From Labilibaculum manganireducens (GTDB lineage Bacteria; Bacteroidota; Bacteroidia; Bacteroidales; Marinifilaceae), in NCBI RefSeq assembly GCF_002843385.1, contig NZ_MVDE01000040.1, forward strand, positions 1-47,053: 47,053 nucleotides of DNA, written 5' to 3'. Shown piece by piece: positions 18,631 through 21,454 of this stretch. The stretch's first letter is position 1. Every line of letters starts with the position of its first letter. Position numbers and translations under genes: made by a program. The notes beneath the pieces are model-generated. The model did not search any database and was not told the origin of the DNA. It worked only from the letters and a program-made list of their open reading frames with translations.

Positions 18631-19788
18631 TTAGTTTAGTTCATTCGAAAATATCGATGGTGCGATATCTCTTAAATTATATCTGGATGCCATTGCTTCT
18701 CCATAAGCACCGGTGGTGCGAATTGCAATTAAATCGTTTCTTTTTGTAGCCGGCAAGCTGACTAATTTACCAAAGCAATCGGATGATTCACAAATAGGTC
18801 CAACCACATCATAATTTTCAGTTTCACCATTCGAACTTAAGTTTTCGATTTTGTGATAAGCCTGATAAAGAGCCGGGCGAAGCAATTCAGTCATACCGGC
18901 ATCTAAAATTGCAAATTTGGTTTTCACACCATTTTTAACGTATAAAACTTTGGAAATTAAGCTGCCGCATTGAGCTACCATTGATCTTCCCAATTCAAAA
19001 TGAAGTTCCTGATTTGCTTCCAGATCTAGAAACTCATCGAAAATGCCGAAAAAGGCAACAAAATCAGGTATCGGATTCTCATCAGGATGCTTGTAATCTA
19101 CACCAAAACCACCTCCCACATTGATGTGTTCTACAAAAATTTGTCGGTCCGAAAACCACTGCTTAATTTCATTGATACGAAGACATAAGCCTTTGAATAC
19201 ACTCAAATCGGTAATTTGAGATCCAATGTGAAAGTGCAGGCCAATTAACTCTATGTTTTTATAGGATGCCAAACCTTCCAGAACACTGTCAAATTCCCAT
19301 CGGCTGATACCAAATTTATTCTCTTCAACCCCTGTTGTGATGTAATGATGCGTATTTGCATTAACATTTGGGTTGATACGAATTGCAATTTTTGCAATTT
19401 TATTGGCTTTTGCAGCCATTTCATTAATCAATTCCATTTCGGGAATCGATTCGCAGTTAAAACAGAAAATATTGGAATCTAATGCGGTTTGAATTTCCTG
19501 ATCGGATTTACCAACACCGGCATATACAATTTTATTCTGTGGATATCCTGATTCCAAAGATCTCTTTATTTCATTTCCACTTACGCAATCGGCACCAAAT
19601 CCATACGACTGAATTTTGGTCATAATTTTCGGATTAGCATTCGCTTTTACTGCATAATGAACATGATATCCATATTTGGATGACTCTCTTTTAACAATCT
19701 CCAAAGTGTTTTGAAGAATCTCCATATCGTAATAGTAGAACGGAGTAGGTATGTTTGAGAATTCGTTGATTCTTGAGCTGTTAAACAT
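18631..19788 (-). CDS. lysA: Diaminopimelate decarboxylase
   Basis: A 385-residue PLP enzyme of fold type III that makes lysine from meso-diaminopimelate, the last step of lysine synthesis. The PLP lysine is Lys48 in YAVKANANP. HFHIGSQ, the GGGFGVDY glycine loop and the C-terminal GPICESSDCF with the catalytic Cys are all present, as is YGEAMASRYN near the end. The protein is cytoplasmic and slightly shorter than the Escherichia coli enzyme, as is usual in Bacteroidota. The gene follows aspartate kinase by 25 bp in the same direction, forming a lysine-pathway operon that may be governed by the upstream attenuator. Confidence 0.96.
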   Translation of the reverse strand: MFNSSRINEFSNIPTPFYYYDMEILQNTLEIVKRESSKYGYHVHYAVKANANPKIMTKIQSYGFGADCVSGNEIKRSLESGYPQNKIVYAGVGKSDQEIQTALDSNIFCFNCESIPEMELINEMAAKANKIAKIAIRINPNVNANTHHYITTGVEENKFGISRWEFDSVLEGLASYKNIELIGLHFHIGSQITDLSVFKGLCLRINEIKQWFSDRQIFVEHINVGGGFGVDYKHPDENPIPDFVAFFGIFDEFLDLEANQELHFELGRSMVAQCGSLISKVLYVKNGVKTKFAILDAGMTELLRPALYQAYHKIENLSSNGETENYDVVGPICESSDCFGKLVSLPATKRNDLIAIRTTGAYGEAMASRYNLRDIAPSIFSNELN

Positions 19789-19813: not shown

Positions 19814-21124
19814 CTAAAATAAATGATTACTTAATGCCTGAAGGGCTGCTACTTTATTCTTTTGATCTACCAAAACGGAAATATTGTGTTTGCTGCCTCC
19901 GTAGGAAATCATTCGCAATGGGATAGACTCAAGTGCTTCCAGTACTTTTTTAGCACTGCCTGCCGATTCGGATATAAAATCACCAACAATACAAATTATC
20001 GATTGATCCTGATCTATCTCTACAATACCAAACTTCAATAATTCCGATTCTATTTCAGAGAGATGAGTATCATCATCTATTGTGAGCGAAATGGCTACCT
20101 CCGAGGTTGTAATCATGTCAATTGGAGTCTTGTATATCTCGAATATCTCGAACACTTTACGCAAAAATCCATAAGCTAAAAGCATCCTTCCCGATTTAAT
20201 TTTTACTGCCGTAATCCCATCTTTTGCAGCAATTGCCTTAATTCCTTTTCCAACCAAATCGTCGGTAATTAGAGTTCCTTCGTCCGATGGACTCAGTGTG
20301 TTTTTTAAACGAACAGGAATACTAAATTGTTTGCATGGCATGATGCTTGAAGGGTGCATAATTTTAGCCCCAAAATAAGCAAGCTCGGCAGCTTCGTCAA
20401 AAGACAATTGTTTAAGAGCTCTGGTATTTTCAACAAAGCGGGGATCGTTATTGTGAAAACCATCTATATCGGTCCATATTTGAACCTCTTCCGATTGCAG
20501 GGCAGCACCAATTAAAGAGGCAGAATAATCACTTCCTCCACGCTTTAAATTATCAACTTCGCCATACGTATTTCTACAGATAAAGCCTTGAGTAATAAAA
20601 AGTTTTTGATTGGGATATTGAGCGAGTTCACGTTCCAGATTTTCTTTGATATAGTATGAATCAGGTTCTCCGTCCTTATCAATCCGCATGAAATTAAGTG
20701 CAGGAAGAAATACTGAATTAACACCAATTTCAGTTAAATAGTAATGAAAAAATGCGGTTGAAATTAATTCACCTTGTGCAAGAATTGCTTTTTCCTGAAG
20801 TGCCGTAAAACTGCGGTAAACAAAGTTGCGAATGTAATTAAAATGAGATGTGATTAGCTCATTTCCCTTGTCTTTTCCATTTTTGCTTGTGAATAGTTCC
20901 TCAATTCGCACTCTGTATTTTGCTTCCAGCTCCGTGATTTTTTCATCAGCCTGTTCCATCTCCCGTTTATACAAAAGATCGGCTATCTCAACCAGAGAAT
21001 TTGTTGTTCCGGCCATGGCTGACAGAACTATGATTCTGGATTCATCACTTTGAACCAGTTGCGCAAGATTTTTAATTCTTTCGGGCGATCCTACCGAGGT
21101 ACCACCAAATTTTAAAACTTTCAT
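19814..21124 (-). CDS. lysC: Aspartate kinase
   Basis: A 436-residue monofunctional aspartate kinase, which phosphorylates aspartate at the entry to lysine, threonine and methionine synthesis. The N-terminal KFGGTSVGSPERI (5-17) and the RGGSDYSASLIGAAL segment build the ATP and aspartate sites. Two ACT-type regulatory domains follow (about 300-436), so feedback inhibition by an end product is expected. No homoserine dehydrogenase domain is attached. It is the first gene of the lysC-lysA unit. The 230-nt leader in front contains a small lysine-rich reading frame and a strong terminator, which suggests control by lysine supply. Confidence 0.96.
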   Translation of the reverse strand: MKVLKFGGTSVGSPERIKNLAQLVQSDESRIIVLSAMAGTTNSLVEIADLLYKREMEQADEKITELEAKYRVRIEELFTSKNGKDKGNELITSHFNYIRNFVYRSFTALQEKAILAQGELISTAFFHYYLTEIGVNSVFLPALNFMRIDKDGEPDSYYIKENLERELAQYPNQKLFITQGFICRNTYGEVDNLKRGGSDYSASLIGAALQSEEVQIWTDIDGFHNNDPRFVENTRALKQLSFDEAAELAYFGAKIMHPSSIMPCKQFSIPVRLKNTLSPSDEGTLITDDLVGKGIKAIAAKDGITAVKIKSGRMLLAYGFLRKVFEIFEIYKTPIDMITTSEVAISLTIDDDTHLSEIESELLKFGIVEIDQDQSIICIVGDFISESAGSAKKVLEALESIPLRMISYGGSKHNISVLVDQKNKVAALQALSNHLF

Positions 21125-21218: not shown

Positions 21219-21248
21219 AAAAAAAGCCTGCAGAATTTCTGCAGGCTT
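21219..21248 (-). terminator. Terminator (attenuator) in the lysC leader
   Basis: Read on the minus strand, AAGCCTGCAG and CTGCAGGCTT form a perfect 10-bp stem with a 5-nt loop, followed directly by seven T. It lies 94 bp before the lysC start, after the short lysine-rich frame, which is the position of an attenuator. No other gene ends just upstream on this strand, so ordinary gene-end termination is unlikely. Confidence 0.8.
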
Positions 21249-21293
21249 ATATCTCTTATCCGATAGCTTTACATCAATTCACATCATACAACG

Positions 21294-21350
21294 TCAAAAA
21301 CGTTTATTGCGTTTATAATGCTTCTTGTATTTTAATGCAATTGCCATCAT
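21294..21350 (-). CDS. Putative lysine-rich leader peptide of lysC-lysA
   Basis: An 18-codon frame reads MMAIALKYKKHYKRNKRF and stops with TGA. Five of its 18 codons are lysine, all in the second half. It follows an A-rich leader, as Bacteroidota start sites often do. Its stop is 46 nt before the terminator. A hairpin can form from the CATTATA-AACG segment inside the frame with CGTT-G-TATGATG just after it, which a ribosome stalled on lysine codons would disturb. These are features of amino-acid attenuators. I did not find a convincing anti-terminator, and Lys codons are common in AT-rich DNA, so the call is an inference. Confidence 0.5.
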   Translation of the reverse strand: MMAIALKYKKHYKRNKRF

Positions 21351-21454
21351 TTATTTTTTTTTATTTGACGGGGTAAAGTTGTGTAAAATTATTTATTAAT
21401 CCAATTGAAATTATTCAATTTGTTAAAATATTAACTAATAAAGAAATAATTACA

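Follow-up and report, generated by a model that had tools for sequence, protein, structure and literature searches.

A candidate ribosome-mediated attenuator with lysine specificity in the lysC-lysA leader of Labilibaculum manganireducens and other Bacteroidales

The lysC-lysA leader and its parts

The window analyzed here is the whole 47,053-nucleotide stretch of Labilibaculum manganireducens DNA given above. Its lysine genes are read from the minus strand, and in the direction of transcription the parts of the locus are as follows:

21369..21404, minus strand: promoter-like element TTGG-n19-CAACTTTAC, kept 5' of the leader frame in relatives (by eye); putative promoter
21294..21350, minus strand: leader ORF MMAIALKYKKHYKRNKRF, 18 codons with five Lys codons (from the sequence and the KxxKxxK core of its relatives)
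21332..21345, minus strand: region 1, the 5' part of the ORF, which can pair with the box in a protector helix (shuffle and swap tests)
21262..21280, minus strand: region 2, the conserved box GAATTGATGTAAAGCTATC between the ORF stop and the terminator, kept in 25 aligned sequences
21233..21253, minus strand: proposed 3' strand of the antiterminator, namely the terminator 5' arm and loop (fold of the transcript cut before the 3' arm)
21219..21248, minus strand: intrinsic terminator with an 11-bp stem, a 3-nt loop and seven T (terminator scan, genome pattern search and alignment)
19814..21124, minus strand: lysC, aspartate kinase, the first gene 3' of the terminator
18631..19788, minus strand: lysA, diaminopimelate decarboxylase, after lysC

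An earlier sequence-only reading had described an 18-residue frame with five Lys codons and a terminator in front of these two genes. The frame is present at 21350-21294 of the minus strand, the coordinates given for it were correct, and both genes follow the terminator. Its codons are ATG ATG GCA ATT GCA TTA AAA TAC AAG AAG CAT TAT AAA CGC AAT AAA CGT TTT TGA, and a 13-nt gap separates it from the box, whose consensus over the 25 aligned sequences is approximately GAATnATGTnAnGCT. The terminator is AAGCCTGCAGA-AAT-TCTGCAGGCTT at 21248-21224 with its T run continuing to 21219; the seven T of the earlier description are confirmed, but its 10-bp stem is 11 bp long by terminator scan. Four terminator-like sites were found in 1.5 kb where shuffles predict 1.0 (two of the four are the lysC hairpin, counted once per strand), and the pattern GCCTGCAG-N5-CTGCAGGCTTTT, with up to 2 mismatches allowed, has no second copy in the 5.3-Mb genome. 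About 100 nt lie between the terminator and lysC, which is 98% identical to lysC of Labilibaculum euxinus and Labilibaculum sp. K2S. A small hairpin, CCATTTC-CGAAA-GAAATGG, lies at 21164-21146 just 5' of the lysC start, and hairpins of differing sequence apparently occupy the equivalent place in several relatives (by eye).

We take the upstream element to be of the Bacteroidota -33/-7 type. Since it is conserved 5' of the frame (by eye) and a simple sigma-70-type scan of the window finds no minus-strand promoter between the terminator and lysC, a transcription start downstream of the terminator is not indicated. Lysine synthesis is a textbook case of riboswitch control. No Rfam family reaches its gathering score in the window, so there is no lysine riboswitch or T-box match, and tRNAs were the only matches in an Rfam scan of 20 related loci. 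Run under strict filters over 393 genomes of the order, the lysine riboswitch model (L-box, RF00168) had no match; it was recovered in 4 of 14 control genomes. These results agree with the earlier impression that no long structured leader of the L-box kind is present here.

Conservation in the family and lysine codons across the order

A frame with at least five Lys codons 5' of a terminator arises in dinucleotide shuffles of the window with p=0.095, so the frame by itself is not significant; the significance comes from its conservation in relatives. Fifty-six genomes of the GTDB family were searched and 30 lysC loci fetched (22 further family lysC genes were left out, except L156). Frame and terminator are both present in 22/22 fetched family loci whose lysC is at least 76% identical, a set composed of the window and L087-L107 in which many sequences repeat those of other lysC loci analyzed. 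The eight loci of the same family with 62-64% identical lysC genes (L108-L115) all lack a Lys leader, two of them (L110 and L112) having a terminator-like hairpin without one, and L156 has no such terminator upstream. The KxxKxxK core is found in 26 of 27 compared leaders, the exception being L022. The N-termini of the leader peptides differ among relatives (MMAIAL, MTHFF, MRFTF, MNIKFT), and the only invariant charged residues in the family leaders are the three Lys of KxxKxxK. The pN/pS of the core is 0.55 in the frame, versus 2.08 and 0.69 in two other frames, and this argues with moderate strength that the core is coding. The earlier reading had proposed alignment as a check for a constant Lys-rich frame and terminator in an otherwise variable leader, and such a pattern is seen: frame, box and terminator are kept in the family, and the spacer that leads from the terminator to lysC shows little conservation.

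Are such leaders found before lysC elsewhere in the order? A scan of 238 lysC upstream regions found a terminator-like hairpin in 103, counts that include 14 of 27 regions (L146-L172) cut at the wrong place, as does the enrichment below, and that come from sets partly picked by similarity to the window lysC and containing its close relatives. In 73 distinct upstream regions whose terminator lies no more than about 165 nt from lysC, the best ATG frames contain 229 Lys, versus 77.0 +/- 11.2 in shuffles (z 13.6), and Lys is the most enriched of 19 residues (Met left out), followed by R (6.2), Q (6.0), Y (5.7), F (5.5) and H (5.3). The suggestion that the Arg and His codons may also matter thus holds to the extent that both residues are enriched in lysC leaders, but they are far below Lys and are not invariant in the family. 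In 14 of these 73 regions no ATG frame contains a Lys codon. Examples of the leaders are L054 MNKQIKKLLRCIKHLSLRP..., L052 MFKQIKKFLWLIMHPEYGSA..., L053 MLIKKHMILNKHPYHRSA, L145 MPSAGMTTKGMYNSKKRTKICRLG and L179 MKGLKNIVKIKQVKRIKPVYKRM. The lysC leaders L250, L256 and L262 are Met-rich as well as Lys-rich (MKQM...), and may respond to a pair of aspartate-pathway products.

An even sample of the order, in which 131 of 147 lysC places were examined and 16 left out, has a terminator within 165 nt of lysC in 21/131 cases and none within that distance in the other 110. Of these 21 terminators, 12 are accompanied by a frame that has no fewer than three Lys, one of these frames (in L110) being the last part of a gene that lies upstream; the reverse complements of the same 131 regions gave 4 terminators and 0 Lys frames. 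Beyond the family, then, other Bacteroidales have the same leader plan in different sequences (11-12 of the 131 lysC upstreams), and outside the order a convincing Lys leader was found in 2 of 26 lysC upstreams (L281 and L283). The device is patchy within the Bacteroidales and rarer outside the order. When L152 (two Lys, of the type of the distant clade L026-L081) is substituted for L110, the hexamer CCTGCA occurs exactly in 5 of 12 Lys-leader terminators and with one base changed in 3 more, versus 0 of 9 other terminators (by eye). This recurrence of a CCTGCA-like core in the lysC terminators of distant clades hints at common descent. One may go further and suppose an old Bacteroidales lysine attenuator, a single ancestral Lys-tRNA sensor that took the place of the L-box, of which the Lys codons, the CCTGCA-like core and, in some, a KQIK-like stretch shared by the lysC leaders of distant families would be remnants, and to whose stalling the peptide itself might add; we hold this only tentatively and think it somewhat doubtful.

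Alternative pairings of the leader RNA

Folding of the full-length window leader gives the protector helix plus the terminator. The protector, a duplex between the 5' part of the ORF and the box, was equaled by 0 of 300 shuffles in the window. Counting the window, 8 of the 18 leaders tested surpass their shuffles at p<=0.014, so that the control-codon region is able to pair with the antiterminator strand both in the window and in the family. Column-wise counts of covariation gave no double compensatory change in either the family or the distant clade, and swap tests were used in their place. Family protector strands pair better with their own partners (-12.7 kcal/mol) than with those of others (-10.5 kcal/mol; p 3e-4, n=17, uncorrected for phylogeny or base composition).

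When the transcript is cut before the 3' arm of the terminator, the same nested antiterminator appears in 16 of 18 family leaders (not L015 or L016), and its helices in the window are GAAUU:AAUUC, UGUA:UGCA and GCU:AGC. The shuffle p of the window's box-terminator pairing is 0.01 in one set-up and 0.32 in another. In the first set-up 4 of 18 leaders reach 0.05 (the window, L009, L096 and L022), that is, 3 of 16 family leaders plus L022 of the two others; in the second, 0 of 7 family leaders do so. The family swap test gave -9.7 vs -9.2 (p 0.018, again uncorrected for phylogeny or base composition), and the seven antiterminator pairs are 98.8% kept in 24 distinct family rows, with no double changes. 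The antiterminator is therefore weak in the window's own sequence and in its family.

It is well supported in the distant clade (L026-L081), where an AGGTC strand near the end of the ORF pairs with GACCT of the terminator and 93% of cells are paired. There the antiterminator beats shuffles at 0.05 in 16 of 26 leaders, and the inner helix favors its own partner at -7.2 vs -5.1 (p 5e-5, n=25, likewise uncorrected for phylogeny or base composition). Many ORFs encode RSA across the AGGTC strand, but the strand of L076 (AGGTCTGCA) lies just past the stop codon and that of L068 (AGGTCCGCA) overlaps the stop (by eye), so it looks to be conserved as RNA. Perfect complements of the terminator 5' arm, 8 or 9 bases long, also lie inside the Lys ORFs of L145 (CTGCAGGC) and L022 (TGCAAACCT), 3' of most of the Lys codons (by eye), and among 14 further leaders the antiterminator reaches 0.05 in 8. 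A competing antiterminator, which the sequence-only reading had proposed looking for, is well supported in the distant clade and in L145 and L022, but weak in the window and its family.

Leaders were also folded with 31 nt blocked around a stalled ribosome. With the ribosome stalled at the first or a middle Lys codon, 8 of 10 leaders formed the antiterminator, and with no ribosome the protector helix replaced it in 5 of 10. L011 and L097 showed a full switch, in which only early stalling yields the antiterminator, and L016 and L096 nearly did so; L009 switches but retains the antiterminator at the stop state, and L020 and L106 have the full antiterminator in no simulated state. The antiterminator forms in every simulated state of the window and L008 (and in all but the stop state of L018), so the switch is not reproduced in the window sequence. 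The terminator fold far exceeds the antiterminator fold in stability, so read-through would have to be kinetic.

A probable lysine attenuator, its alternatives and its relation to known systems

The leader has an ORF rich in codons for the end product and an intrinsic terminator between this ORF and the first structural gene. We consider it very probable that it is a ribosome-mediated (classical) transcription attenuator with lysine specificity, the promoter, translation, stalling and lysine response being predicted from sequence. The conserved Lys frame and terminator and the absence of a known riboswitch support the original proposal of a ribosome-stalling control, for which the response to lysine is a prediction. 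Transcription would begin 5' of the leader ORF with a ribosome trailing the polymerase. With Lys-tRNA in short supply the ribosome would stall on the early Lys codons and mask region 1, the box would then be free to pair with the 5' arm and loop of the terminator, and lysC-lysA would be transcribed. With ample lysine the ribosome would reach the stop codon, whereupon region 1 would pair with the box, or the ribosome itself would mask the box, and the terminator would form. Lysine would thus probably be made only when ribosomes run short of it.

Could the peptide instead stall its own ribosome? A basic nascent chain (KxxKxxK with Arg, His or Asn between) might arrest through the exit tunnel and sense free lysine or another signal rather than slow Lys decoding. 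The positions between the Lys show a fair degree of conservation (KRNK, KHNK), and there is little variation in AAACGCAATAAAC across 25 sequences, but these same positions do vary (R/H/P; HY/QN/LY/QI/QV), and the peptides of other clades differ and have mainly their richness in Lys in common. Arrest by free lysine acting on this antiterminator would, moreover, be expected to raise rather than lower expression of the biosynthetic genes, and we regard this reading as improbable.

The leader might also be a gene in its own right, for a small protein or an sRNA, that ends at the terminator, lysC having a separate promoter downstream. Frame, terminator and promoter-like element would make a complete unit, and the gap before lysC, about 100 nt here and about 245 nt in L017, would leave space for such a promoter. 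No conserved promoter-like element is found between terminator and lysC (partly by eye), however, and in the other order-sample Lys leaders (L110 excluded) 24-41 nt lie between the end of the terminator and lysC, a short space for a promoter. The linkage to lysC also recurs across clades, and we find this explanation very improbable. A lysine-binding riboswitch of an unknown class could account for a conserved box outside the ORF, but the box is explained by its pairing partners, no Rfam model matches, and the leader is short and AT-rich with no conserved multi-helix core seen; we judge it extremely improbable.

The his, thr and trp leaders of enterobacteria (His_leader RF00514, Thr_leader RF00506, Trp_leader RF00513) are leader-peptide attenuators. 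Like them, the lysC leader precedes the first biosynthetic gene and has a short ORF in which the end product's codons are frequent, with a protector helix and a terminator to which an antiterminator is the proposed alternative. It differs in its amino acid, in having Lys codons that are spaced (KxxKxxK) rather than in one run, and in matching no Rfam model at gathering score. In other phyla the lysine riboswitch likewise uses premature termination to control lysine genes, lysC among them, but it is a long structured RNA that binds its ligand directly, and under strict filters it was not found here or in the 393 genomes of the order.

Closer to home, hisG of the same genome is preceded by a His leader, MKFTAIHHHHHYTYQPVS, and then a GC-rich terminator (L273, contig C3), and there is a leader, MNMLGTSMGMSMSETSICTIPTIITTTTTTL (...PTIITTTTTTL, translated by eye), with Thr, Ile and Met codons before a fused, thrA-like aspartate kinase (L002 1190-1285, contig C37), so leader-peptide attenuators look usual in this genome. 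Other genomes of the order likewise have His-rich leaders with lysC-like terminators upstream of hisG-like genes (L118, L121, L125 and L138), and the leader of L118 carries GTAGAATTATGTAAA, which resembles the lysC box. All these share with the lysC leader an ORF with cognate codons and, in the His cases, a terminator after it, but they serve another amino acid and another downstream gene, and homology to the lysC leader is unsupported. Since the four His leaders were found with a lysC leader/terminator model, the resemblance of their terminators to those of lysC is partly due to selection. That covariance model (R1, terminator structure only) was rejected: it matched 59 of 393 genomes, and most of the 27 matches read had no recognizable amino-acid leader (gene ends, generic terminators), the exceptions being the four His leaders and one lysC leader (L145).

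Published passages report strong clues that in Flavobacterium psychrophilum amino-acid operons are subject to leader-peptide attenuation (PMC9723704) and a model of attenuation (PMC1183508), lysine being mentioned in neither, and they note short ORFs reminiscent of leader peptides in long 5' UTRs of B. thetaiotaomicron (PMC7366714). Other passages assign the L-box to Firmicutes, gamma-proteobacteria and Thermotogales (PMC3766115), list a lysine riboswitch 5' of Shewanella lysC (PMC2659441), report no conserved RNA structures upstream of actinobacterial lysine operons (PMC1262725) and describe a histidyl-tRNA-dependent leader upstream of Lactococcus lactis lysQ (PMC4833913). Among the matches listed in a search of the open-access PMC literature, a scope outside which older subscription work on attenuators falls, no lysine leader peptide is described. 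The mechanism of attenuation is known; its specificity for lysine appears to be new.

The coupling of ribosome and polymerase in Bacteroidota has, to our knowledge, been little studied, and Marinifilum, Labilibaculum and other Bacteroidales offer ready test sites for attenuation in this phylum. A Lys leader that recurs in the Bacteroidales would point to a way of regulating lysC in bacteria where no L-box is detectable, and would show that ribosome stalling, too, can run lysine genes.
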